Shown here one piece after another: positions 1 to 27,135 of a stretch of 36,056 nucleotides of DNA. A program made the translations under genes and the position numbers. The stretch comes from Candidatus Aenigmatarchaeota archaeon (GTDB taxonomy: Archaea; Aenigmatarchaeota; Aenigmatarchaeia; QMZP01; JAFGSV01), in contig JAFGSV010000031.1 of NCBI GenBank assembly GCA_016934325.1, forward strand, positions 1-36,056. The letters are read 5' to 3'. The notes beneath the pieces were generated by a model. It was not told where the DNA came from and searched no databases. It was given only the letters and a program-made list of their open reading frames with translations. Every line of letters begins with the position of its first letter. Position 1 is the stretch's first letter.

Positions 1-237
1 ACTATTTATTATATCTTTTTTTATTTTGGCAAATGGCAGGGCACCTTTTTTAACAGTTTTGGCTTTTCCACATTGGCAATACACACAATTAAAAGTGCAT
101 ACTTTATCTTGTGGAGCAAAAAGATTAATCCCCAAAGACCGCCCAAGTCTTCTTGAGGCAACAGGACCATAAATAATAGGTGTTAGTAATATTTGCTGTT
201 GTGATTCATCGCATTGTGTTGTTATTTTTCGCGTCAT
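1..237 (-). CDS. Radical SAM Fe-S protein, N-terminal part (runs off the window)
   Basis: Reading the reverse strand from ATG at 237 gives 79 open codons to the window edge. Residues 23-37 read [15 protein letters not shown], followed by a Cys triad at 47, 51 and 54 (CxxxCxxC, context [10 protein letters not shown]) that would ligate a 4Fe-4S cluster. The '[12 protein letters not shown]' lead-in is typical of a widespread uncharacterised archaeal and bacterial radical SAM family. The substrate cannot be told from this fragment. It is AT-rich like its neighbours. If the element at 299-388 is an integron attC site, this gene would be the next cassette. The family call is firm; the function is unknown. 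Confidence 0.85.
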
Positions 238-298: not shown

Positions 299-388
299 GC
301 CTAACATCAGGATTATGAGAAGTCGTGCGTAGCACGATTTGGGTGAAGAAGTCTGCAAGACTTCGTAACCTCATAATCCTTGTTATAT
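299..388 (-). other. Integron attC-like folded element
   Basis: On the minus strand, directly downstream of the hydrolase gene, the element opens with ATATAAC (one mismatch to the attC R'' consensus RYYYAAC) and ends with GTTAGGC (perfect R' consensus GTTRRRY). The ends pair: TAACA with TGTTA, then a 2-nt bulge on one side, then a perfect 11-bp stem (309-319 with 370-380). Inside are two hairpins, TCGTGC/GCACGA (323-328/332-337) and GAAGTC/GACTTC (348-353/359-364). Size (90 bp), orientation after a gene and one-sided bulge fit attC. It could instead be a MITE relic or a structured RNA. Only one copy is visible. Confidence 0.5.
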
Positions 389-452
389 TCCCCGAAGGGC
401 TGAAATTTAGTGCAACGTTCTGAAGGGAAATTTCAGAGTTTGATTTTTTGGC
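380..452. repeat. Left copy of a split inverted repeat flanking the hydrolase gene
   Basis: TTGTTATATTC (380-390) and TTTGATTTTTTGGC (439-452) recur as perfect reverse complements at 1056-1066 and 1040-1053. On the right the two blocks are 2 bp apart. On the left they are separated by 48 bp that hold the stem-loop at 400-436. Confidence 0.6.
400..436 (-). terminator. Stem-loop at the 3' end of the hydrolase gene
   Basis: Perfect 9-bp inverted repeat CTGAAATTT (400-408) and AAATTTCAG (428-436). A small CCC-GAA-GGG hairpin (391-399) abuts it on the far side. The hydrolase stop codon (433-435) lies inside one arm. It may stabilise or end the hydrolase mRNA. It could also be an insert, because the same flanking motifs occur without it at 1040-1066. 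Confidence 0.4.
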
Positions 453-1039: not shown

Positions 1040-1066
1040 GCCAAAAAATCAAATTGAATATAACAA
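1040..1066. repeat. Right copy of the inverted repeat flanking the hydrolase gene
   Basis: GCCAAAAAATCAAA (1040-1053), 2 bp, then GAATATAACAA (1056-1066): exact reverse complements of blocks at 439-452 and 380-390. The copy lies in the intergenic region between the divergent hydrolase and recombinase genes, next to the recombinase-site candidate at 1067-1097. Confidence 0.6.
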
Positions 1067-1097
1067 CTATTAAGCGAGATAAATGTTCGCTTAATAG
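1067..1097. repeat. Candidate recombinase core site or operator (11-bp arms, 9-bp spacer)
   Basis: Perfect inverted repeat: CTATTAAGCGA (1067-1077), 9-nt spacer, TCGCTTAATAG (1087-1097), placed about 50 bp upstream of the tyrosine recombinase start. The 11-bp arms match the geometry of tyrosine-recombinase core sites; the 9-bp spacer is a little long. ATTAAGCGAG (1069-1078) recurs as a direct repeat at 275-284, so the two copies bracket the hydrolase and the attC-like element. An autoregulatory operator is the main alternative. Confidence 0.5.
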
Positions 1098-1144
1098 GTC
1101 AAATTTGGATAAAAAACGAGATTTTATAAACTTGTTCCCCAATA

Positions 1145-13554: not shown

Positions 13555-15158
13555 CTGATCACTTTCTTGAGCAGTCTCCTGATCAACGAGAGTTTCATGT
13601 TCGATTTCCTCTCTATGGTCTTGAGCATCTCTATGTCCTCCCTGGAAAGCGCCCTGAAGTACGAGACCAGCAGCATGTAGAACAGGAGAGCAAGCAGCGA
13701 GAACGCGATTATGAGCGGAATGCCCTGCTCGGGGATGAGCGCCATGAAGATGCCGTAGACGCTTATGAACGCGACGGCGGCAAGGACAGCCGTCTTCACG
13801 AAGCTCCTCGATATCTGCCTTATCCCGGTCATCCTGAAAATGAGCGCCTGGTACAGGCAGAAGCTCACGGCGTACATCGTCATGCTTGCGAAGGCGGCCC
13901 CGTCAATGCCGAACACGGGTATCAGCGCGAGGTTGAGCACGACGTTCACGAGCGTGTTGACTATGGTTACGTACAGTATGTACTTCGTCTTCTTGTACAT
14001 GTTGAGCAGGTTGAAGCTCAATATGCTGAACCCGCTTATGAAGAACCCTATCGTCAGGAAGAGCATCGCCGAGTAGCCCTCCGCGTACATCGGCCCGAAG
14101 ATCAGCGTTATTATCTGCCGCGGAAAGAATATGAATGCGAACAACAGTGGGGCGTTCAGGTACAGCAGCCATTTGCTCACCGTCCTGTAGACGCCGGCGA
14201 GGTCATCCTCCTTCTTGAGGGCATAAAGCGACGTGATGACCGGCAGGAAGAGGGCGTTGAGCGCATATGGGAACATGGTGAGCAGCCTCGCCGTCGGGAC
14301 GGCGGCGTTGTAGATGCCGACGTCTTCCGCCGCCTTGAATATGCCGATCATCAGGGTGTCCGTGTAGGTCGTTATGAGGAGCATGAAATTAGTGAAAAGG
14401 AGCGGGAACGAGAAGAGCAGCAGCTCCTTCTTCATGGGCAAAGACTTGATCATGCTTCTGAAGGGGAATATCCTCCTCAGCATGAACACGGATATGACGG
14501 CCGTGACGACCGCCGCCATCGTCCATGCCAGAGAAAGCCCCGCCAGGCCGAGCCCCAGCATGCCGAAGAGCAGAATGAACAGCAGCCTCATCGAGTTGGC
14601 GGTGAGCACCTCGGAATAGATCTGGTAATCCATCCTCTTGAAGCCTATGAAGAACGAGTTGATCAGCAGGAAGGTGACCGTGAACGGGAGCGAGAAGGAC
14701 AGAACCGCGAGGACGATTCCCAGCTGCGCGTTGCTGAAAACCGCCTCGGACAGCAGGGGGGAGAACGCGAGCATGGTCGCCAGAAGGATGAACGAGAGGG
14801 GCATGGCCAGCCGCACGCTCGATGATATGACGCCCCTCAGCTTGGCCTCTTCCTTCTTCTGCGAATAGAAGGCTATGTACCTGATCACCCCCCTGGAAAG
14901 CCCAAGCAGGGCCACGGCCTCGAAGAAGCCGATGAGCGCCAGGCCCATCGAGAAGACGCCGTAGTCCGCGGGCCCGAAGTACTGGGCGATGAATATCCTG
15001 TAGACATAGGCGAGTATCTTGGAAGTTATCAGCCCGAAGAAATACAGGCCCCCGCCCCTGGCTATCATCTTCAGGGACTGCATGCCTTCAGGATCTTTCT
15101 CCACGCTCACGGTATCGCCCCGCGCCTCCAGTTCGTTCCCGGATTTCACCAGCCCCAT
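13551..15158 (-). CDS. Wzx-like polysaccharide flippase (MOP superfamily)
   Basis: 535 residues with about 14 hydrophobic helices, for example PLSFILLATMLAFSPLL, LLFILLFGMLGLGLAGLSLA and IPLIIAFSLLALLFYMLLV. The N-terminal GGGLYFFGLITSKILAYVYR and ADYGVFSMGLALIGF are typical of archaeal and bacterial polysaccharide exporters. It would flip lipid-linked oligosaccharides outward for S-layer or pilin glycosylation. The open frame extends 72 codons further to 15374, but that part is non-hydrophobic, Arg/Gly-rich and overlaps the epimerase. ATG 15158 has a TATA-like TTTTTTTATACG (minus strand, 15177-15188) centred 25 bp upstream. First gene of a two-gene operon with the glycosyltransferase. Confidence 0.93.
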   Translation of the reverse strand: MGLVKSGNELEARGDTVSVEKDPEGMQSLKMIARGGGLYFFGLITSKILAYVYRIFIAQYFGPADYGVFSMGLALIGFFEAVALLGLSRGVIRYIAFYSQKKEEAKLRGVISSSVRLAMPLSFILLATMLAFSPLLSEAVFSNAQLGIVLAVLSFSLPFTVTFLLINSFFIGFKRMDYQIYSEVLTANSMRLLFILLFGMLGLGLAGLSLAWTMAAVVTAVISVFMLRRIFPFRSMIKSLPMKKELLLFSFPLLFTNFMLLITTYTDTLMIGIFKAAEDVGIYNAAVPTARLLTMFPYALNALFLPVITSLYALKKEDDLAGVYRTVSKWLLYLNAPLLFAFIFFPRQIITLIFGPMYAEGYSAMLFLTIGFFISGFSILSFNLLNMYKKTKYILYVTIVNTLVNVVLNLALIPVFGIDGAAFASMTMYAVSFCLYQALIFRMTGIRQISRSFVKTAVLAAVAFISVYGIFMALIPEQGIPLIIAFSLLALLFYMLLVSYFRALSREDIEMLKTIERKSNMKLSLIRRLLKKVIR

Positions 15159-15176
15159 AATAATTGTAATGACGCT

Positions 15177-15188
15177 CGTATAAAAAAA
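15177..15188 (-). promoter_or_regulatory. TATA box of the flippase-glycosyltransferase operon
   Basis: On the minus strand TTTTTTTATACG is centred about 25 bp from ATG 15158. This rejects the longer flippase frame. Confidence 0.65.
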
Positions 15189-15208
15189 CAGAATTAGCCG
15201 CCCGCGGG

Positions 15209-16321
15209 TCAGCCGGAGATGAGCCCCCTTTCCGAAAGCTCCTGCTTCGCCTGATCGTACCTGTCGGTCGCCTGCTGCCCCTCGCTCCATTCCACGAGCT
15301 CCCGGACGCCCTCCTTGAAGCCGACCTTCGGCTCGAAACCTAGTTTCCTTATGCTGCCGATGTCGGCGAAGCAATGCCTTATGTCCCCCGACCTGTACTT
15401 GCCGGCGATCACGGGCTCGATGTCCTTCCCGAGCAGGTCGGCAAGAGTCCTGGCGACCTGCATGATGGTGACCGTGTTCCCCGTGCCTACGTTGAAGGAG
15501 CGGAAGTCCGCCTCGCGGCTCTTCATGGCGATGATGTTCGCCTCGACTATGTCATGCACGGATACGAGGTCCCTGGACTGGTTGCCGTCCTCGAAGATTA
15601 TAGGAGGATTCCCGTTCTTCAGGCGGGACGAGAATATGGCGGCCACCCCCGTGTAAGGGTTCGACAGGGACTGCCTCGGCCCATAGACGTTGAAGTATCT
15701 CAGAGAGACCGCCGGTATGCCGTATGCCCTTCCGACCGTCAGGCACAGCTCTTCCTGGTCCCTCTTTGTTATCGCGTAGACGGATGTGGGCTTCAGCGGC
15801 TTGTCCTCGCTCGTCGCGACCTTCCTGACGGGCTTGCCGCACGACGGGCATTTCATCTCCCAGTCCCGCCTGGCCAGCTGCTCGTCCGTCCTCAGGTCCG
15901 GATATACCATTCCGCAGGCATCGCATTCGTAGGCGCCCTCGCCGTAGATGGACATGGAGCTTGCGACTATGAGCTTCTTGATCTTGTCCTTCATCCTGGC
16001 GATGCTTCCCAGCAGCTTTGCCGTCCCGAGGGTGTTCATGTCGACGTACCTGCCTATCTCGTACATCGACTGCCCGACCCCGACCGCGGCCGCCTGGTGG
16101 AAGACAACTTCCACCCCGTCCAGGATCTTCTGAACCAGCCCGTCGTTGTGTATGCTGGCGAAGTGGTATTTCGCGCCGTCGTTGAGGTAATCGGGCTTCC
16201 TCGATCCGTGCACCTGCTCCTCGAGGGAGTCTATCACGATGACCTCGTGCCCGTCCCCGACAAGCCTGTCCACGAGGTGGCTTCCAATGAATCCGGCGCC
16301 CCCTGTAACCAAGACCTTCAT
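15209..16321 (-). CDS. NDP-sugar epimerase with zinc-ribbon insert (dTDP-L-rhamnose 4-epimerase-like)
   Basis: 370-residue extended short-chain dehydrogenase. The Rossmann motif TGGAGFIGSH lies at 6-15; the catalytic pair is Tyr182 and Lys186 (YAITK), with the usual Ser in ASSMSIYG. Between them is an insert with two CxxC pairs (Cys133/136 in ECDACG, Cys158/161 in KCPSCG), a zinc-ribbon-like feature I associate with proteins annotated dTDP-L-rhamnose 4-epimerase. It probably interconverts an NDP-hexose for the neighbouring glycosyltransferase. A GTG at 16330 is in frame, but ATG 16321 with upstream GGAAG is preferred. It has its own promoter and ends 50 bp before the flippase start. Confidence 0.9.
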   Translation of the reverse strand: MKVLVTGGAGFIGSHLVDRLVGDGHEVIVIDSLEEQVHGSRKPDYLNDGAKYHFASIHNDGLVQKILDGVEVVFHQAAAVGVGQSMYEIGRYVDMNTLGTAKLLGSIARMKDKIKKLIVASSMSIYGEGAYECDACGMVYPDLRTDEQLARRDWEMKCPSCGKPVRKVATSEDKPLKPTSVYAITKRDQEELCLTVGRAYGIPAVSLRYFNVYGPRQSLSNPYTGVAAIFSSRLKNGNPPIIFEDGNQSRDLVSVHDIVEANIIAMKSREADFRSFNVGTGNTVTIMQVARTLADLLGKDIEPVIAGKYRSGDIRHCFADIGSIRKLGFEPKVGFKEGVRELVEWSEGQQATDRYDQAKQELSERGLISG

Positions 16322-18907: not shown

Positions 18908-19135
18908 ATGACAGAGAAAGACAAGGATGAAACTTTTAAAGAGAAAAACGAAGTTTTAGATATGACGAATGGGAAAAAGAGAAAAAAGATAAGAGTTGAT
19001 AGTCATTTAAGAAAAGTGCCTGGAAAACAAAAAAGAGTGCGAGTAAAAGCCCATTCAAGAACTATAGAAAAGCAAAAAGCAAAACCGAAGAAAAAGAAGA
19101 AGAAAATAGTCTGGAAAAAATTGGCAAGATGGTAG
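18908..19135 (+). CDS. Lys/Arg-rich small protein, possible antitoxin partner of the PIN protein
   Basis: 75 residues from ATG 18908, chosen because AGAGGAGGT lies just upstream, the clearest Shine-Dalgarno in the window (the GTG at 18875 is in frame but falls in the element's end region). The N-terminus is acidic and charged (TEKDKDETFKEKNEVLD); the rest is very basic with two copies of a V-x-(S/A)-H-x-R unit (RVDSHLRKV, RVKAHSRTI) and a KKKKKK run. It looks nucleic-acid binding. It ends 1 nt before the PIN gene, so the two are translationally coupled as in toxin-antitoxin pairs, though it resembles no standard antitoxin I know. Confidence 0.75.
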   Translation: MTEKDKDETFKEKNEVLDMTNGKKRKKIRVDSHLRKVPGKQKRVRVKAHSRTIEKQKAKPKKKKKKIVWKKLARW

Positions 19136-19136
19136 A

Positions 19137-19769
19137 ATGGTGGTTAGGTTTTTTCTGGATTCGAATGTAATTGCTGATTATATTATAATTAACTTGGGAA
19201 TTAACGAAGAGAAACAGGAAATATTGAGAGAAGATTTAAAAGAAATTGAAAAATATCTAAAACAACAATGGAAAGACATTAAACAGCATGCGATATATTC
19301 GTTCCTTCTACTCGAATTATTGAGACGGAAAAAGCATTTTACTCATCATAAGTTTTTCACATCATTATTAGCGGTTTCTGAAGTAGCGTCCGTAATATAC
19401 GAGAAATATTGCATAGATCAAATGTATGAGAGGAGAATCCCATTCAAATACTGGTTTAAGCCCGATTTTGAAATTAAAATCCCGCAGAAAATATTAGAAA
19501 GGATTAGATTATCTATTATAAAATTCCATATGCTTTACATATCAAGAAAAATAATACAACTCGCTGAAAATATTGTGATCCAGGAAGTTACAGATATTAT
19601 TACAAATAAAAAGCGTGATACGCATGATGCATTTCTTTCGGCACAAGCGGTTTTTAATGGGTGTGATTTTTTTGTTACAAATGATGGGAGACTGATTCGT
19701 AAAATGAAAAAATACAAGAATATCGAATATATTAGACCTGAAAGAGCATATAGAGTTTTATGTAAATAG
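19137..19769 (+). CDS. PIN-domain ribonuclease-like protein
   Basis: 210 residues, longer than VapC toxins (about 130). Acidic active-site residues are placed as in PIN nucleases: Asp8 in FFLDSNVIADY, Glu60 in FLLLELL, Asp164 in THDAFLSA and Asp183 in VTNDGRL. A helical, positively charged insert (about 90-160) accounts for the extra length. PIN proteins cut single-stranded RNA with divalent metal ions. Immediate coupling to a basic protein suggests a toxin-antitoxin or RNA-processing unit that could help maintain the transposon. AT-rich codon use. Confidence 0.85.
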   Translation: MVVRFFLDSNVIADYIIINLGINEEKQEILREDLKEIEKYLKQQWKDIKQHAIYSFLLLELLRRKKHFTHHKFFTSLLAVSEVASVIYEKYCIDQMYERRIPFKYWFKPDFEIKIPQKILERIRLSIIKFHMLYISRKIIQLAENIVIQEVTDIITNKKRDTHDAFLSAQAVFNGCDFFVTNDGRLIRKMKKYKNIEYIRPERAYRVLCK

Positions 19770-19848
19770 TTAAGAATACCAAATTTATTTACAAATAAGA
19801 GCTTTTTATAAAAACATTGTTTTTAATCCTTTAATACAAAATTAAATT

Positions 19849-20430
19849 ATGCCATTTACAGAAAAATTGAAATGGGAAGTAAAACGCAAGGCACATTTCA
19901 AGTGTTGTTGGTGTCGTGAAATAAGACATAGTTTAGATGTCCACCACATCGTCCCTGAAAGTGAAAATGGACCCTCTACTTTCGAAAATGCCGCTCCTTT
20001 ATGCAAGAATTGTCACGACATAGTTGGTCACAATCCTAAAAAAAGGAAGGAAATAGTGGAAAGAAGAAATTTCTTATATGAACAATGCGAGAAGTCAAAT
20101 GAAGATACAAAGAAATTGGAAGAGATACACTGCATAGTAACAGACATGAAAAAAGATAACGATGATAAAATGAGAGAAGTAAAATCGATAATGTCTGGTT
20201 TAGTTAAAAAAACTGAATGTCTTTTTTCTAAATTGGAAACTACACCTTCAAGTCAATGGTCTGATACCCTGTCACAAATTGGCACGACAACAAGCACCAT
20301 TTCTACTGGTTCTGGTGCAATGATAGATTTTGGTAATATTCACTCTCAATCTCGTTGTGGTCATTGTGGATATTCTGGATTCCCTATGTCAGGCGGTAAA
20401 TGCCCCGCATGTGGAGGACAGATGGAATAA
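19849..20430 (+). CDS. HNH endonuclease-like protein with C-terminal zinc ribbon
   Basis: 193 residues. The N-terminal HNH fold has Cys19/Cys22, His32-His33 (VHHIVP), Asn47 (FENAAPLC) and Cys52/Cys55-His56 (CKNCHD). A long charged helical region (about 62-130) follows, then a Ser/Thr linker (about 131-160), then a second zinc site, Cys170/Cys173 and Cys185/Cys188 (CGHCGYSGF, CPACGG). HNH proteins cut or nick DNA. The coiled middle suggests a dimer, and the ribbon may bind DNA or protein. As cargo on a transposon it could act in defence or homing. A/T-rich boxes near 19803-19825 could serve as promoter. Confidence 0.85.
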   Translation: MPFTEKLKWEVKRKAHFKCCWCREIRHSLDVHHIVPESENGPSTFENAAPLCKNCHDIVGHNPKKRKEIVERRNFLYEQCEKSNEDTKKLEEIHCIVTDMKKDNDDKMREVKSIMSGLVKKTECLFSKLETTPSSQWSDTLSQIGTTTSTISTGSGAMIDFGNIHSQSRCGHCGYSGFPMSGGKCPACGGQME

Positions 20431-20459
20431 GATATTATTAATAGTTTTCAAGTGGTAAA

Positions 20460-21338
20460 ATGATTTTAATGAATATAAACAAAATTTTGAATGGCAAAAT
20501 GATTTTCAACTTTATCCCAAGGGGTTTTAAGGATATTGACAAAGCGATAATTGTTGTTGCCTTAGTATTAACAGTAACAATATTTTTCTATCTATTCAGC
20601 GGGGCACCTTTTACAATTGCTACTCCAACTAATACAAACATTAAAGGATATGCCGAATATTTAATATTGCCCATATTTTTGGTTTATTCCTTAACATCGA
20701 TAATTGTTATTAGTGTGACATTGAATAAAAGAGGACTCTTGAGAAAGATATCTCTTCTTGGTCTCGGTGCGGGTATATTCATCTCATATCTATTAATTTT
20801 CGTCATAGGAAATGAGAATTTAACATTCGACTCAATGCTTAGTCCTATTATGAGTTATTTCGCAATATCATTTGGATCAATTGCATCAATAACCATTCTT
20901 GTTAGTAAATTTTCACAAACTACGATGAAAACGTCAATAACATCGGTTATTATTTTTCTGATATTCTTCACATTTTCTGCCATGCTATTCGGAAATCTTC
21001 TGATATTCTTTCCTCTATTAACATTCTTCTTCGTGTTGCTTTTTTCTATTCTTACATTAATCACTATTCCTTTCGTTTTTAGCACAGATGATATAAAATA
21101 TGATGGAAAGGATGTTAAATTCAAGGTGATTAATGTTGATATTTTAAATGGAGGGGGTTCAAAAAAATTAGTAATAAAAGCGAGAAAAGAAGGTGAAAAA
21201 ACCATTTCTACATTAATTCCAAGAACTGGTCGATCTTTGCTTGTAACAGATAGTCTTGAACCTGGCGATTTCATTAAGTGCCATTATTTATATGGTGGTG
21301 AAAAGAACTATATTATTAGAGAAATGGAGAAATTATGA
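20460..21338 (+). CDS. Multi-pass membrane protein with cytoplasmic C-terminal domain, unknown
   Basis: 292 residues with about six hydrophobic helices between 28 and 210 (AIIVVALVLTVTIFFYLF; LILPIFLVYSLTSIIVISV; LLIFFPLLTFFFVLLFSIL) and a roughly 80-residue soluble tail that looks beta-rich (KFKVINVDILNGGGSKKLVIKA cut into strands; ITTLIP-like segments). The family is not recognised. It overlaps the following lipoprotein gene by 4 nt (ATGA), so the two are made together and probably work together at the membrane. Confidence 0.78.
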   Translation: MILMNINKILNGKMIFNFIPRGFKDIDKAIIVVALVLTVTIFFYLFSGAPFTIATPTNTNIKGYAEYLILPIFLVYSLTSIIVISVTLNKRGLLRKISLLGLGAGIFISYLLIFVIGNENLTFDSMLSPIMSYFAISFGSIASITILVSKFSQTTMKTSITSVIIFLIFFTFSAMLFGNLLIFFPLLTFFFVLLFSILTLITIPFVFSTDDIKYDGKDVKFKVINVDILNGGGSKKLVIKARKEGEKTISTLIPRTGRSLLVTDSLEPGDFIKCHYLYGGEKNYIIREMEKL

Positions 21339-21742
21339 AAAATTATATAGTATCCATAATAATTATTCTAATAGTTTTTAGTAGTGGTTGTGTCATTTTT
21401 GACAATTTAAACATTAAGAGGTCAATTAATATCGAAAATATTGGAACTGGGGATAATTTTAGAGTGGATGTCTCAATTGAGAATCAGGTAAATGAACCTA
21501 TTATTGTCAATGAGGTTAGTCTAGTTTTTGATGAAGACCAATTTACATGTATACCACAAAGTCAGCCAAACTTGAATTTACAAATATTACCTGGAGATAG
21601 AAAAGTAATTGAATTCGATAGATGTGAAGAAGATTATAATGCTGTTCCAGGTGAATTTCTGATAAAAGGTATACTTATTTATACAAGGAATAATATTCAA
21701 CAAAAATTGGATATTGAAGGGGCAAAAAGAATTGTAGAGTAA
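21335..21742 (+). CDS. Small lipoprotein coupled to the membrane protein upstream
   Basis: 135 residues. The signal is MKNYIVSIIIILIVFSSGC, with the lipid-carrying Cys19 in SSGC. The mature part looks like a single beta-sandwich (FRVDVSIENQVNEPIIVNEVS; RKVIEFD) with Cys67 and Cys87-like residues that could pair. It should sit on the outer face of the membrane beside the multi-pass partner whose stop codon it overlaps. No known family was recognised. Confidence 0.75.
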   Translation: MKNYIVSIIIILIVFSSGCVIFDNLNIKRSINIENIGTGDNFRVDVSIENQVNEPIIVNEVSLVFDEDQFTCIPQSQPNLNLQILPGDRKVIEFDRCEEDYNAVPGEFLIKGILIYTRNNIQQKLDIEGAKRIVE

Positions 21743-21775
21743 AGAACAGAATCACTAAATAGAAATGTGATATGA

Positions 21776-22033
21776 TTAAAACCAGAAAGTATCTTTCTTT
21801 TTCGGTTTTTTTACTCTTTTCTTCGGAAAAATTAAGCCGTCTCCTATTGTCTGGGTTCTCGCTCCAGGCATGACTTTCTTTCTTGGAAATATAAGCCCGT
21901 CCCCAATTGTTCTCATTTTCTTCCCCCTGTGTTTATATGGTTTCCAAGAATATGAACAACTTCTACAAAACATCTTCCCTGGTTCCGATGCCTGTGTTTG
22001 ACTACTTTTGCATCTTGGACATTTTATCCCCAT
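21776..22033 (-). CDS. Zinc-ribbon protein with a duplicated TIGDGLIFP motif
   Basis: 85 residues. The N-terminal zinc ribbon has Cys5/Cys8 (CPRC) and Cys23/Cys26 (CRSC), like transposase or transcription-factor ribbons. The rest is basic and holds two near-identical units 20 residues apart: RTIGDGLIFPRKKV (41-54) and QTIGDGLIFPKKRV (61-74). The motif is unfamiliar and looks like a short binding peptide. Its start is 1 nt from the stop of the 22035-22250 gene, so the two form an operon on the minus strand. Confidence 0.72.
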   Translation of the reverse strand: MGIKCPRCKSSQTQASEPGKMFCRSCSYSWKPYKHRGKKMRTIGDGLIFPRKKVMPGARTQTIGDGLIFPKKRVKKPKKKDTFWF

Positions 22034-22034
22034 A

Positions 22035-22250
22035 TTACCATCCTATCTCGCTCAATTTCTTCCTGAAATATATTGCTAATGCAACTATAGTCCCTGCACT
22101 GAACAGAAACCACTTAAATATTTCTCCCCCTATCTGGCTGGATATAACTTCACTCACAATAAGAATTCCAAAAATGAAAACCAATGGCACTACGATGAAG
22201 GTAAAAACAGCTTCTTGCACTTTGCTTTCATACTTGGTGTGTCTTGGCAT
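22035..22250 (-). CDS. Small two-helix membrane protein
   Basis: 71 residues with two hydrophobic segments (AVFTFIVVPLVFIFGILIV; WFLFSAGTIVALAIYF) and basic ends (MPRHTKYESK; RKKLSEIGW). The function is unknown. ATG 22250 is supported by a TATA-like TTTTTATAAATC (minus strand, about 22273-22284) about 28 bp upstream. The zinc-ribbon gene follows after 1 nt. Confidence 0.68.
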   Translation of the reverse strand: MPRHTKYESKVQEAVFTFIVVPLVFIFGILIVSEVISSQIGGEIFKWFLFSAGTIVALAIYFRKKLSEIGW

Positions 22251-22286
22251 ATTTCAGATTTCTCATTGTGATTTATAAAAAAATGT

Positions 22287-22550
22287 TTAAACGGAAGTTG
22301 TTTCCTTGAGTTTTGAGAACAATTCCTTACCTTTTTCTGTTAATTCATATACTCTGCCGAACTTTTCTTCTGGTGTCAGACATCTAACGAGATTCCTGTC
22401 GGAAAATTCTTTCAGTGCCCTGCTTATGTGAGTCGTGGATAGCTTCAACTCGCTACTTATCTGTGAAGGGGTTTTCGGTTTTTCCAATGCCATTAAAACT
22501 TTTCTTCTCGTCCTCCCTCTCACCACGAAACTGTAAGAAGCCCATTCCAT
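22287..22550 (-). CDS. Winged-helix transcription regulator (MarR/ArsR-like)
   Basis: 87 residues. The winged helix spans about 12-80: RRKVLMALEKPKTPSQIS, then the recognition region STTHISRALKEFSDRNLV, then the wing FGRVYELTEKGKELF. This layout is common in small archaeal regulators. ATG 22550 has ACAAATTAAAT about 26 bp upstream on the minus strand. It is divergent from the transglutaminase-like gene, with overlapping promoter regions, so it probably controls that gene and itself. Confidence 0.82.
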   Translation of the reverse strand: MEWASYSFVVRGRTRRKVLMALEKPKTPSQISSELKLSTTHISRALKEFSDRNLVRCLTPEEKFGRVYELTEKGKELFSKLKETTSV

Positions 22551-22642
22551 ATATATCAGAAAGAGACCATTTAATTTGTCTTAATCGACCGAAAAAAGAC
22601 CAAAAATATACCATTTATAAAGACACACAGCATATGATAGTC

Positions 22643-23671
22643 ATGAAACCAACGCACTGGAAATTCTTATCGGTTTTATGTATAGTCGTTATTGTGCTTA
22701 TTTCAGTTGTTCTATACACGACCATTTTATCAGAGCAGAATTCATGGAATATGTTGAAAGATCAAAATGAATTAGTGGAATCACAAAGAGCGACTATTAA
22801 CCGTCAAACTGCTGATTTGTTTAATAAAGGGCAGAAAATCGAATATCAGCAAAGCACCATAAAGCAGCTTAACAACACTGCGGAAGAGCAGAAGACCCGA
22901 ATTGATGATATGGTAGACGAATTATGGAATTTACGAAACGAAGTTGGTTCTTTAAATCAAATATTGAGTCTGAAGAGCACTCAACTTCAACTCACAGAAG
23001 AAGAACTTGCACAGATAAGTAACGATCTTGAATCTACCCAAGGTGAACTTGCCGAAACATCCCGTTTGCTGGATCTCGCTACGGAATTCGAAGATAGAGT
23101 CATGCAAGGCATCGACAGGTCGAAGTCTTATTTATTGCTGGGTCAATATGAAAAAACAGTGAGTATTGTCTCGACATTTACTGATGTATATCCTGCAACC
23201 AATGATGTTGAATTGTGGTCGAGGGCTGCCGACATATACAATTGGCTCGGTGAACATTATTCCTATTGTTCAGACAAAGGTTTTTGCGTAGGAAATAATT
23301 GTTATCAGTTGCAGTATTTCTCACCAGACGAACTTCTTTATTACGGTGCCCAGGACGTTCTATGTGGCGATTGTGACGATTACGCACAGCTTTTTGTGGG
23401 AATGATGTATGCATCAGGAGTTCCTCACGATAAGGCAAGAGTAGAATGTGGGTTAGTTCCTGTTGGTGGTCATTGCTGGGCAGCGGTTAACATCGATTCT
23501 CAGTGGTATAGGATTGATCCTGTATGTTCAGACCCAGCTAAATATATCGACTTTTTCGGTTATCAGATTCAGATATCGGGTGAGGAATTCCCAGAATATT
23601 TCAGTCACGTAGATTGCTTCGATTCGTATCAATTAACGAATTGGTATACAGCCGAAGAATTCCACCAATAA
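22643..23671 (+). CDS. Membrane-anchored coiled-coil transglutaminase-like protein
   Basis: 342 residues from ATG 22643. An N-terminal anchor helix (FLSVLCIVVIVLISVVLYT) is followed by a long coiled coil (about 32-150, rich in Q, E, L) and a transglutaminase-like cysteine domain whose triad is visible: Cys244 (GDCDDYAQLF), His277 (GGHCWAAV) and Asp292 (YRIDPV). The domain should face outward and could hydrolyse or crosslink peptides, or have lost that role. The frame runs upstream to 22415, but TTTATAA (22614-22620) centred 26 bp before 22643 supports the chosen start; ATG 22634 is close. Its stop is 1 nt from the convergent winged-helix gene. Confidence 0.83.
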   Translation: MKPTHWKFLSVLCIVVIVLISVVLYTTILSEQNSWNMLKDQNELVESQRATINRQTADLFNKGQKIEYQQSTIKQLNNTAEEQKTRIDDMVDELWNLRNEVGSLNQILSLKSTQLQLTEEELAQISNDLESTQGELAETSRLLDLATEFEDRVMQGIDRSKSYLLLGQYEKTVSIVSTFTDVYPATNDVELWSRAADIYNWLGEHYSYCSDKGFCVGNNCYQLQYFSPDELLYYGAQDVLCGDCDDYAQLFVGMMYASGVPHDKARVECGLVPVGGHCWAAVNIDSQWYRIDPVCSDPAKYIDFFGYQIQISGEEFPEYFSHVDCFDSYQLTNWYTAEEFHQ

Positions 23672-23672
23672 A

Positions 23673-23927
23673 TCAGCGTTTGGTGCGTTTCTTCCTTCTT
23701 CTCTTTGTAACCAATTTCCAGCGTATTGTGCCACCCAACTTTTTTCTTTTGACTTGTAAGTATCCCCTTCTGAACAATCTTGCAAGAGTGTCATGTGCTG
23801 TCTGCCAACTCATTTCCAAGATTTCTGACAATTCATGAGTTGTATACTCGTGATCTCTATTCATCCGCATTTCATGTAGTATCGATATTTCCCTATGGGT
23901 GAATTTAGCTTTTCTTCTCACTGGCAT
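23673..23927 (-). CDS. Small basic winged-helix protein
   Basis: 84 residues. HTH pattern: FTHREISILHEMRMN, then TTHELSEILEMSWQTAHDTLARL and a short wing, ending in a very basic tail (TKRRRKKRTKR) suited to DNA binding. It overlaps the 3' end of the AbrB-like gene by 23 nt and is read after it, so the two form an operon and probably co-regulate element genes. Confidence 0.78.
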   Translation of the reverse strand: MPVRRKAKFTHREISILHEMRMNRDHEYTTHELSEILEMSWQTAHDTLARLFRRGYLQVKRKKLGGTIRWKLVTKRRRKKRTKR

Positions 23928-24243
23928 TTTTACTCACCTTCTTTTTCCTTCCCCTCTTCTTGACCTTTCTAACTATATTGCACCAAAATTCATCGACCCG
24001 AATTTCTTGCTTGGCTTTTACAGGCTTCCGCACAACGAATTCTAAACTAAAACCAGCCTCCAAACTTAAAACTTCCTTTATTTCACGAGGAAACCTGACG
24101 AATAACTGACCATACGAATCTTTGCTTATGGTAGCAGTCTCAACTATCTCGGTTTCGTCCAACGGAAGGTCGTCATCAATATCTCTGGGTTTTTGGGGGA
24201 GTTCCCATTCAGTTTCCGTATTTGAACGTGTGTTATTTTCCAT
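23905..24243 (-). CDS. AbrB/SpoVT-like DNA-binding regulator
   Basis: 112 residues. Residues about 36-80 fit the AbrB/MazE swapped-hairpin fold (ATISKDSYGQLFVRFPREIKE, split after residue 55, then LSLEAGFSLEFVV). The N-terminus is acidic and the C-terminus very basic (KKRGRKKKV). AbrB-type proteins bind as dimers to short repeats. Three AACATACG copies lie between this gene and the divergent transposase, two of them flanking this gene's own TATA box (ACTTTATATAG, minus strand, about 24265-24277), so autoregulation and transposase repression are likely (inference). Confidence 0.75.
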   Translation of the reverse strand: MENNTRSNTETEWELPQKPRDIDDDLPLDETEIVETATISKDSYGQLFVRFPREIKEVLSLEAGFSLEFVVRKPVKAKQEIRVDEFWCNIVRKVKKRGRKKKVSKNASEKKS

Positions 24244-24256
24244 ATTATATTAATTT

Positions 24257-24344
24257 AACATACGTCTATATAAAGTTTTAATTAAACATACGAAAAAACG
24301 AAAGATATTTAAAACTTCTATACCATATTCTCAATAAACATACG
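24257..24344. promoter_or_regulatory. Three AACATACG operator candidates in the AbrB/transposase intergenic region
   Basis: AACATACG at 24257-24264, 24285-24292 and 24337-24344, all in the same orientation. The first two bracket the TATA box of the AbrB-like gene. The third overlaps the probable transposase promoter (AATAAA about 28 bp before ATG 24365) and sits in the centre of an inverted repeat TTCTCAA/TTGAGAA (24328-24334/24349-24355). Confidence 0.6.
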
Positions 24345-24364
24345 TAATTTGAGAATGTGATGTT

Positions 24365-25419
24365 ATGATGCAAACGACCGTAAGGACATTCAGAGAGAAG
24401 GGTAAGAGAAAGAAGCGACACTGGACTCAATACAATCTTGCACATACAAGCGAGAAGATAGTAGCTATGAGGATACTCAACGAGGCTGTGAATTCGCTTA
24501 ACATACCATATGAGTATAACGGTATTGGAAGACCGCCTATGGGAATTGACGATATGATAAAATGCTGTGTTGTCAAGGTCTACAATTCATTCAGCACGAG
24601 GCACATAATTCCAGACCTGAATTATGCACATGCACTTGGTTACATAAAACAACCACCGCACTTCAATATCATATCGAAATATATGAGAAATCCTGAAATC
24701 GAGGAATATCTTCACAAATTATACAACATTCTTGCCCAACCTTTAGTTGGTATAGACGAGATATTCGCACCAGATGCTACTGGTTTCGGAACTCACAAGA
24801 AAGACTGGATGGAAACCAGAGGGTGGTTCAGGTCGAAAAAGGTGTCTCTTTGGAAAGAATTCAAGAAATTGCACATAGTATGCGGAACATTGACGACGAT
24901 CATAACCGAAGCGAGAACCAGTGAAGGTCGCTGCCACGATTCACCGTTTTTCAAGGATTTAATCCGAGAAACTGCAAAGAGATTCGATGTGAAATATGTT
25001 TGTGCCGACTCAGGCTATCTATCGAAGGACAACTGTGAATATGTAAAGGAATTGGAGGAAAGCCTTTTATCAAACCAAAGACGAACATGCGGGAAAAGGC
25101 TATCATAGAGATTAAAAACGGCAAGAAAATGACACCTTGGAGAGAGATGGTCTGGTTCTGGGTGAATCATAGACAAATATTCGAATTGTATTACCATCAG
25201 CGTTCAACAGTGGAAAGTGTATTCTCGGCTATCAAAAGGAGATTTTTACCTTATCTCAGAAGCAAAGACGATCAAGGGCAATACAACGAAATGTTATGCA
25301 AGGTCGTTTGTCACAACTTGAGCGTGCTTGTGAATTCCATCTTCACACTCGGTCTCACTGCTGATTTCAACAGGAAGGTCACCGCAGCGGAAAACCGCTT
25401 CTATAAAGACAGGTATTAA
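24365..25419 (+). pseudogene. DDE transposase, broken by a single-base frameshift
   Basis: Two frames join into one IS4/IS5-like transposase of about 350 residues. Frame one (24365-25108) has a helical N-terminus (RPPMGIDDMIKCCVVKVYNS), the first acidic residue in FAPDATGFG and the second in VCADSGYLSKDN. The reading then continues one frame back (open from 25039 to 25419) with GKPFIKPKTNMREKA and the Glu motif STVESVFSAIKRRF. Restoring one G near 25054-25057 would give ELGGKPFIKPK, the expected family sequence. Loss of one G from a run, an assembly error, or programmed -1 shifting are the options; no classic slippery heptamer is seen. The final TAA (25417-25419) lies in the right terminal repeat. 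Confidence 0.85.
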
Positions 25420-25426
25420 AAGTGCA
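25415..25426 (-). repeat. Right terminal inverted repeat core
   Basis: ATTAAAAGTGCA: perfect reverse complement of 18861-18872 and 11 of 12 to 18843-18854. It overlaps the transposase stop codon and lies 5 bp inside the right AGTTAAACC copy. Confidence 0.82.
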
Positions 25427-25431
25427 CACCT

Positions 25432-25440
25432 AGTTAAACC
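25432..25440 (+). repeat. Right target-site duplication, AGTTAAACC
   Basis: A perfect copy of 18829-18837. Outside it the sequence continues as the second half of a palindrome (TTAAACCA 25434-25441, TT, TGGTTTAA 25444-25451), so the element entered a symmetric divergent promoter region. Confidence 0.88.
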
Positions 25441-25508
25441 ATTTGGTTTAAAAAGGCAGGATGCCGGTAAAAACCGTTTTTATTGCAGCTGCGCATAAAT
25501 ATAGTATT

Positions 25509-26382: not shown

Positions 26383-27135
26383 ATGAGATTCATAGTCAGG
26401 ACCAAGAACGGCTACGGGGGGAGCATCAGGGACGAGGTGGTTAGGATGCTCGAGGCGAACGGGGAAGAGCACACGGACAGGATCGAGCCGGGATGCGACT
26501 TCGCCGTAATCATCGGGGGCGACGGGACCCTGCTGAGGGACCACAGCTGGATAGACTGCCCGGTCCTCGGCATCAATCCCGGCAGGAGCGTGGGCTTCTA
26601 CATGCGGGCCTGCAACCTGGATTTCAGGCGCAGGCTCATGTCCCTGCTGCACGGCAGGCCGCGGAAGGACTACTATATTTACGACCTCATGAGGCTGCAG
26701 GCGAGCGTGAACGGGCACGGCATGGACGCCCTCGCCCTGAACGAGGTGCTCGTGAGCCCGGTGTTCGTGCGCAGGATCATGGAAGCGGAGCTGGAAGTCG
26801 GAGGAAGGAAGAGCCTGGAGAGGAACAGCGCGATCATCGCGTACACGCCGACCGGGTCCAACGCCTTCGCCCGTTCAGCTGGGGCCAAGCCGCTCAGCCA
26901 TGGCTCCAAGTCTTTCGGGGTCGTCGCGCTTGCTCCTTATTCCGGATCCCTTAAGAGGGGAGAGAAGAAGATGCGGGACGGCTATGTCAGGATAAGGTAC
27001 TCGAGCGATAAGGGCGAGGTCTGCATCGACGGCAGCGAGCTGCACTTGATGGAGCTCAGGCATGGGGACGTCGTCGAGATAGGGAAGCACCCCAAGCCGC
27101 TCAGGCTAGTCGGATTCAGGCCGAGGCTGGGCTGA
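26383..27135 (+). CDS. nadK: NAD kinase (archaeal type)
   Basis: 250 residues. The ATP-binding GGDGT motif is at 45-49 (IIGGDGTLLR), followed by INPGRSVGF, LNEVLVSP and the NAD-binding TPTGSNAFARSAGAKP; the family usually reads TPTGSTAYS in the last. It phosphorylates NAD to NADP in the cytosol. The protein is compact, lacking the N-terminal extension of bacterial forms. A TATA box at standard distance supports the start. It converges with the XTP/dITP pyrophosphatase. Confidence 0.93.
   Translation: MRFIVRTKNGYGGSIRDEVVRMLEANGEEHTDRIEPGCDFAVIIGGDGTLLRDHSWIDCPVLGINPGRSVGFYMRACNLDFRRRLMSLLHGRPRKDYYIYDLMRLQASVNGHGMDALALNEVLVSPVFVRRIMEAELEVGGRKSLERNSAIIAYTPTGSNAFARSAGAKPLSHGSKSFGVVALAPYSGSLKRGEKKMRDGYVRIRYSSDKGEVCIDGSELHLMELRHGDVVEIGKHPKPLRLVGFRPRLG

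Follow-up and report, generated by a model that had tools for sequence, protein, structure and literature searches.

An integron-like locus with a Xer-like integrase lacking the I2 domain in a member of the Aenigmatarchaeota

Integron integrases are held to have arisen from a Xer-like recombinase through acquisition of the I2 helix, and common detection software defines IntI by the I2 domain. The parts of PMC7790495 consulted here state that cassette capture requires this helix and that in bacteria it enables recombination of single strands, docking the extrahelical bases of the folded attC site and blocking the second strand exchange; because I2 is described there as necessary, an I2-less integrase working on a folded attC would run against the accepted mechanism. 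The same parts note that in CTXphi hairpins can serve as substrates of Xer proteins if cleavage comes from one of two partners. Archaeal integrons were reported by Ghaly et al. in 2022, and the consulted sections of that paper (PMC9668308) give six IntIs and 539 attCs, the latter mostly without an integrase. Their search for IntIs demanded the IntI-specific domain, which archaeal IntIs are stated to possess, so integrases of the type described below would escape their definition. Among open PMC papers we found no description of an I2-less integron integrase.

Here we describe a locus at one end of a 36,056-nt contig from a Candidatus Aenigmatarchaeota archaeon (GCA_016934325.1, JAFGSV010000031.1), the whole of which was analysed and is called the window. 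Its first 1.97 kb are AT-rich (0.31-0.36 GC), whereas the remaining contig lies mostly at 0.5-0.65 GC; a second AT-rich island at 19001-25500 (GC 0.29-0.43) is perhaps another insertion. Within the AT-rich end a hydrolase gene (993-433) and a further open reading frame running from 237 past position 1 both lie on the minus strand, and a tyrosine recombinase, P0001, is encoded divergently at 1145-1963 on the plus strand. A preliminary description had placed an attC-like site at 299-388 behind a single-gene cassette, with the next gene pointing the same way and a divergent tyrosine recombinase on the other side, and had read this as an integron layout. These points were borne out: the attC-type site is real, it follows the hydrolase stop codon by 45 nt in the correct orientation, it ends a cassette holding that single gene, and attC, cassette, attI and divergent recombinase are all present. 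The recombinase is a tyrosine recombinase as described, while the IntI-specific domain that would make it a canonical IntI is absent. We read the locus, with a probability of roughly 0.8, as the end nearest attI of an archaeal integron; its integrase P0001, lacking I2, would act on a folded attC and a double-stranded attI.

Cassette 1 occupies 305-1066 on the minus strand (762 bp, from GTTATATTCAAT to the G of GTTAGGC), and its serine hydrolase gene (433-993, PF06821, 186 aa) starts 73 nt into it. Its attC, at 299-388 on the minus strand, runs from ATATAAC to GTTAGGC as originally noted, and comprises R'' (ATATAAC), L'' (AGGATTATGAG), a first hairpin, CCCAAAT, a second hairpin, ACTT, L' (CTCATAATCCT), a GA bulge and R' (GTTAGGC). 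The complementary arms, one-sided bulge and internal hairpins that had been proposed all appear on DNA folding of this strand, as a TAACA/TGTTA stem, the GA bulge, an 11-bp stem and two hairpins, with an energy of -19.6 kcal/mol against -6.4 +/- 2.2 for shuffled sequences (z -6.1; 0/200 shuffles as low). The opposite strand folds similarly well and could equally be the reactive one, a point against the integron reading. One element of the preliminary description was mistaken, namely the pairing of ATATAAC with GTTAGGC: the true partner is GTTATAT at 1066-1060, beyond the hydrolase gene at the start of the same cassette, with which ATATAAC forms an inverted repeat (I3).

The covariance-model search that had been proposed recovered the site at 291-393 on the minus strand with 64.1 bits (E 1.6e-11), using a model of 21 related sites from which the window site and its near-identical copy in a Pacearchaeota record (L042) had been left out. 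Scanning the window against Rfam gave nothing at gathering threshold. The genome contains 33 copies of GTTAGGC, but only two attC model matches at E <= 0.1; blastn found no further copy of the site in its own genome, and the second attC was seen by the covariance model only. It is highly improbable that the hairpin is an accidental palindrome, a terminator or a MITE-like repeat next to a housekeeping XerA: such a reading draws on the commonness of tyrosine recombinases and hairpins, and on XerA_Arch being the best NCBIfam profile of P0001 (though, at 201.6 bits, below the NF040815 cut-off of 220), and is opposed by the leave-out E value, by attC covariation and cassette-boundary statistics, and by a recombinase distribution that is patchy and crosses phyla.

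Related attC sites were gathered by a motif-plus-stem scan, an earlier scan for strict stems having missed most of them, that of the window included, and 23 were aligned from TAACA to GTTA to build the covariance model. Pairing of R'' with R' and of L'' with L' is evident from this alignment. Compensatory changes occur in 18/21 RNAalifold pairs, 93.1% of paired cells are complementary against 67.4 +/- 1.4% in shuffles, and the covariation score is 0.645 against 0.174 for shuffled alignments (0/500 as high), with slid registers reaching no more than 0.146; the pairs of the R boxes are nearly invariant and therefore uninformative on covariation. Selection on the attC fold is thereby shown, at the level of sequence comparison. 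CCCAAAT is nearly and ACTTC fully conserved. In canonical attCs the extrahelical bases lie on one side, at positions within the L box. Here the extra bases are also one-sided, in 23/23 sites, and sit between L' and R': the spacer on the R'' side is 1 nt (21 sites) or 2 nt (2 sites), and that on the R' side 2-5 nt. A search of 85 sources with the attC model gave 61 matches at E <= 0.1. Loci L042-L096 account for 47 of these, every one placed 5' of the integrase on the opposite strand and none downstream of it, some of them being training sites and two weak ones (L054 and L070) being attI itself.

An integron makes a specific prediction about cassette ends: R'' pairs with the first bases of its own cassette in the circular form, and the downstream GTTRRRY is already part of the next cassette. 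In the window, R'' of the attC complements 6/6 bases at the start of its own cassette and does not fit the next start. Over 34 cassettes with both ends defined, the six R'' bases before AAC match the own start at 5.09/6 positions against 2.88/6 for the next start (Wilcoxon p 8.6e-6; 0/10,000 permutations of the starts reach the observed sum), and all six match in 20/34. These 34 were counted from 48 sites, the remainder having no preceding boundary or no AAC/GTT; the 48 were in turn entered from the 61 matches after setting aside same-genome duplicates, cut-off and opposite-orientation matches and some weak ones. Three further arrays with 15 cassettes gave 4.87 against 2.87 (p 0.006; 0/10,000 permutations). 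Pairing of R'' with the own start is the signature of circular cassettes, and the family bears it. As exceptions that count against the integron reading, some cassettes, for example 3/4 in the L146 array, do not pair with their own start, and such cassettes perhaps reflect missed sites. The longest open reading frame lies on the expected strand in 22/32 delimited cassettes; the 9/32 with it on the other strand and the 1/32 with none count against the integron reading. Pfam names could be given to 7/10 cassette proteins scanned, the broken second cassette of the window included (isochorismatase, HIT, serine hydrolase, HAD, PNPOx, LMW phosphatase and bPH_2).

Homology between cassettes begins at their first base. 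Cassette 3 of L052 and cassette 3 of L146, from Woesearchaeota and Pacearchaeota records, are 84% identical over 657 nt from base 1 and then continue into different attCs, so that one cassette is common to separate lineages; cassette 1 of L031 and that starting at boundary 3385 of L039 are 88.6% identical over 393 nt, again from the first base. The L146 cassette at 14872-15622 has its body in common with L052 (84%), and its attC is 99% identical over 84 nt to one in L100, a locus from a relative of the window's order. Cassette bodies and attCs thus seem to be exchanged separately. In a further case, window positions 301-448 span the attC together with the 3' end of cassette 1, beginning shortly ahead of the stop codon, and match 1907-2054 of the Pacearchaeota record L042 at 96% identity. 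There the cassette with the matching 3' module carries an unrelated gene of the isochorismatase family; the integrases of the two loci are only 78% identical in DNA. The presence of one 3' module on two different genes bears on how cassettes are born. Within this shared module, between the hydrolase stop codon and attC, lies a short inverted repeat (CTGAAATTT...AAATTTCAG, 403-435), possibly a terminator.

The array appears to continue past position 1. Cassette 2 begins with GTTAGGCGTAAT at 305 on the minus strand and runs off the contig at position 1, and its gene (1-237, minus strand) is represented by the first 79 codons, with the CxxxCxxC N-terminus of a radical-SAM protein. A search for further attCs beyond position 1, as the preliminary description had proposed, located one at 26596-26707 on the minus strand of another contig of the same genome (G000:C1, 27,352 bases), 645 nt from its end, and this is probably the attC of cassette 2. 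The R'' of that site is complementary to GTTAGGCGT at window position 305 (6/6 after GTT), and the terminal open reading frame of C1, open at its 5' side and 191 aa long, covers positions 51-150 of the 166 of the radical-SAM profile with 28.3 bits, slightly below the Pfam cut-off of 29.5; it is probably the remainder of the split cassette-2 gene. The R'' match and the split gene together imply that C1 ends where the window contig (C12) begins, and we take the two to be neighbours. The integron would then consist of two cassettes, with the hydrolase and the radical-SAM gene, between attI and a last GTTATGCCAAT. The radical-SAM half on C1 had no relative in the other genomes of a 145-genome set at E <= 1e-10, and no unbroken homologue was found there.

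Between cassette 1 and the integrase lies attI (1060-1142, minus strand), a conserved block made up of a left arm, an upstream inverted box, a further box and an AT-rich, TATA-like stretch. On the cassette strand the order is TATA-like stretch, TTCGCTT box, inverted box (CTATTAAGCGA in the window), left arm (TCGCTTAATAG) and GTT; in the window the left arm and inverted box (1067-1077 and 1087-1097, 11 bp each) are perfectly complementary (z -5.4). An alignment of 16 loci shows conservation upstream of the recombinase gene that stops sharply at GTT (1066-1064 in the window); the sequences beyond are locus-specific and mostly start GTTRnnnnMAAT. Crossover would accordingly be placed at G|TT within this GTT. 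The position 5' of the integrase gene differs from the arrangement in the consulted sections of Ghaly et al., where attI is put downstream of intI (PMC9668308). A conserved TATATAAAAT stretch upstream of attI on the cassette strand is a candidate for the cassette promoter Pc.

P0001 (1145-1963, plus strand, 272 aa) is a Xer-like tyrosine recombinase in which R135, K160, H222, R225, H248 and Y257, which we take to be the catalytic residues, are invariant across 28 aligned sequences. It aligns with IntI4 (PDB 2a3v) in two blocks, between which it has 16 residues in place of the 61 of IntI4. In the aligned archaeal relatives (excluding the truncated L076) 56-66 residues separate the Lys motif and HxxR; the figure is 63-69 for six Xer-like proteins of bacteria and 104-106 for four bacterial IntIs, so that about 44 residues, corresponding to the I2 domain of an integron integrase, are missing from every measurable archaeal relative. 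The canonical IntI profile TIGR02249 scores P0001 at 186.7 bits, below its curated cut-off of 265, a cut-off reached in 0/145 related genomes, and among the TIGR02249 matches listed the alignments end near profile position 183 or begin near 233. An AlphaFold model (mean pLDDT 82.1, pTM 0.59) is closest to XerA (Z 23.4, 249 aligned residues, rmsd 10.7), followed by the archaeal Xer 4a8e (Z 20.6) and IntI4 (Z 20.1, 242 aligned, rmsd 8.7); domain movement or the modest pTM could explain such large rmsd values. In a quick tree whose deep order is weakly supported, 48 family-A integrases group together (SH-aLRT 100) with phyla mixed inside, and four bacterial IntIs stand apart (99). A more diverged family B (for example L031, L036 and L039), less than 50% identical to P0001, is also without the IntI-specific domain and also adjoins attCs of the same type.

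The missing I2, the Xer-like inverted arms of attI and a structural match to XerA above that to IntI4 would suit an integrase that recombines attC in Xer fashion, as the duplex L'-R' core, the hairpin serving transcription termination or mRNA stability. We consider this unlikely, since a duplex L'-R' site needs neither the L''/L' pairing, which covaries strongly despite sequence drift, nor an R'' that fits the start of its own cassette rather than the next, and the spacer asymmetry in every aligned site also speaks against it.

Relatives of P0001 occur in 68/145 related genomes at E <= 1e-10, the weaker ones being other tyrosine recombinases. Genomes of named archaeal species yielded 55 distinct loci, with full-length matches of up to 85% identity, among them records named Pacearchaeota, Woesearchaeota, Aenigmatarchaeota, Diapherotrites, Altiarchaeales, Nanohalarchaeota, Archaeoglobales, Argoarchaeum and Thermoplasmatales/DHVE2. 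Integrase loci often lie at contig ends (L043, L046, L050, L055, L062, L072 and others), as if variable arrays were breaking assemblies. A viral collection gave no relative of the integrase; among the best-scoring 5000 plasmid records the relatives were distant, all below 60% identity, and of 559 matching phage records all but two were below 60%, those two lying at 60-80%. attCs of the window's type were found in 58/145 related genomes at E <= 1e-3 and in 20/24 of the genomes that we selected among those behind the 55 loci, with up to 33 per genome; the maximum is in a Nanohalarchaeota MAG (G165, behind L090), and the Argoarchaeum genome behind L080 has 17. Strong integrase matches accompany attCs in 29/58 genomes, against 7/87 of the others (Fisher p 2e-8, kinship ignored). 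The 29/58 attC genomes without a strong P0001 relative, most of them incomplete MAGs, count against the integron reading.

Those same genomes would be accounted for if the cassettes were moved by canonical IntIs with I2, encoded in other cells or by mobile elements, and P0001 were an unrelated neighbour, and bacterial IntI1 does recombine archaeal attCs according to the consulted sections of PMC9668308. Several observations make such an outside source very improbable. No IntI passes the cut-off in any of the 145 genomes, attI sits directly 5' of a P0001-type integrase in the aligned loci and tracks the integrase across phyla, attCs lie only on the attI side, and the attC model (R1), searched down to E <= 10, matched nothing in four bacterial records bearing IntI.

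Under the integron reading, P0001 would insert circular single-gene cassettes, each ending 3' in a single attC, into the attI that adjoins the P0001 gene, with the join falling between the G and TT of GTT. We infer that P0001 is the recombining enzyme, which would bind attI as a duplex and attC as a reactive folded single strand, R'' pairing with R' and L'' with L' so that 1-2 bases remain between R'' and L'' against 2-5 between L' and R'. With the extra bases out of the helix, the attC arm reads by eye TTAAT-4-GTTA, the same as attI, so the spacing of TTAAT to GTTA in the folded arm would resemble the double-stranded attI core; given this match, the one-sided bases could have two roles, adapting the site to the enzyme and marking the strand. 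The spacer would then set polarity, replacing the canonical extrahelical bases and I2.

The resemblance to bacterial integrons (class 1; VchIntIA, or IntI4) extends to the divergent tyrosine recombinase, attI, single-gene cassettes, GTTRRRY/RYYYAAC boxes, R''/R' and L''/L' stems and one-sided extra bases; the differences are the shorter stretch between the Lys and HxxR motifs of the integrase and, in attC, the conserved CCCAAAT and ACTTC, the two internal hairpins and the extra bases adjoining the R' box. On a strict definition, as judged from sequence, one defining integron feature, the IntI domain, is lacking, and the locus appears integron-like in all other testable respects, the position of the extra bases left aside. 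Archaeal XerA (PDB 5hxy, 4a8e) is closest in fold and domain make-up. XerA, however, is a chromosome-dimer resolvase, whereas the P0001 family has a patchy distribution, moves across phyla and occurs in association with attI and cassettes. An I2-less recombinase acting on a single-stranded hairpin, as proposed here for P0001, has a parallel in CTXphi and IMEX via XerCD, which differ, in the consulted parts of PMC7790495, in that a host dif site is hijacked and a phage integrated, without gene cassettes or arrays. Like the integrons of Ghaly et al., as given in the consulted sections of PMC9668308, those described here are attC arrays of archaeal MAGs (Nanoarchaeota and Aenigmatarchaeota among them), organised in cassettes and mostly CALINs; unlike the IntIs of that study, the integrases lack the IntI-specific domain.

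Taken more widely, P0001 may represent a second type of integron integrase, Xer-like and without I2, which acts on a folded attC whose one-sided spacer of 2-5 nt replaces the lock formed by I2 and extrahelical bases, and which would be the main cassette engine in DPANN and several other archaeal phyla, either as a preserved pre-I2 state or as an independent invention; we give this wider proposal a little better than an even chance. The occurrence of such attCs in two fifths of the related genomes (58/145) suggests that archaeal integrons are far commoner than the literature says, and that tools demanding the IntI domain miss their integrases. If the proposal is true, I2 is not needed for integron life, these archaea offer a natural model of the pre-I2 state, and the I2 step becomes testable with real enzymes rather than laboratory-evolved ones. 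A second integrase type would also explain many of the archaeal attC clusters that have been reported without an integrase.
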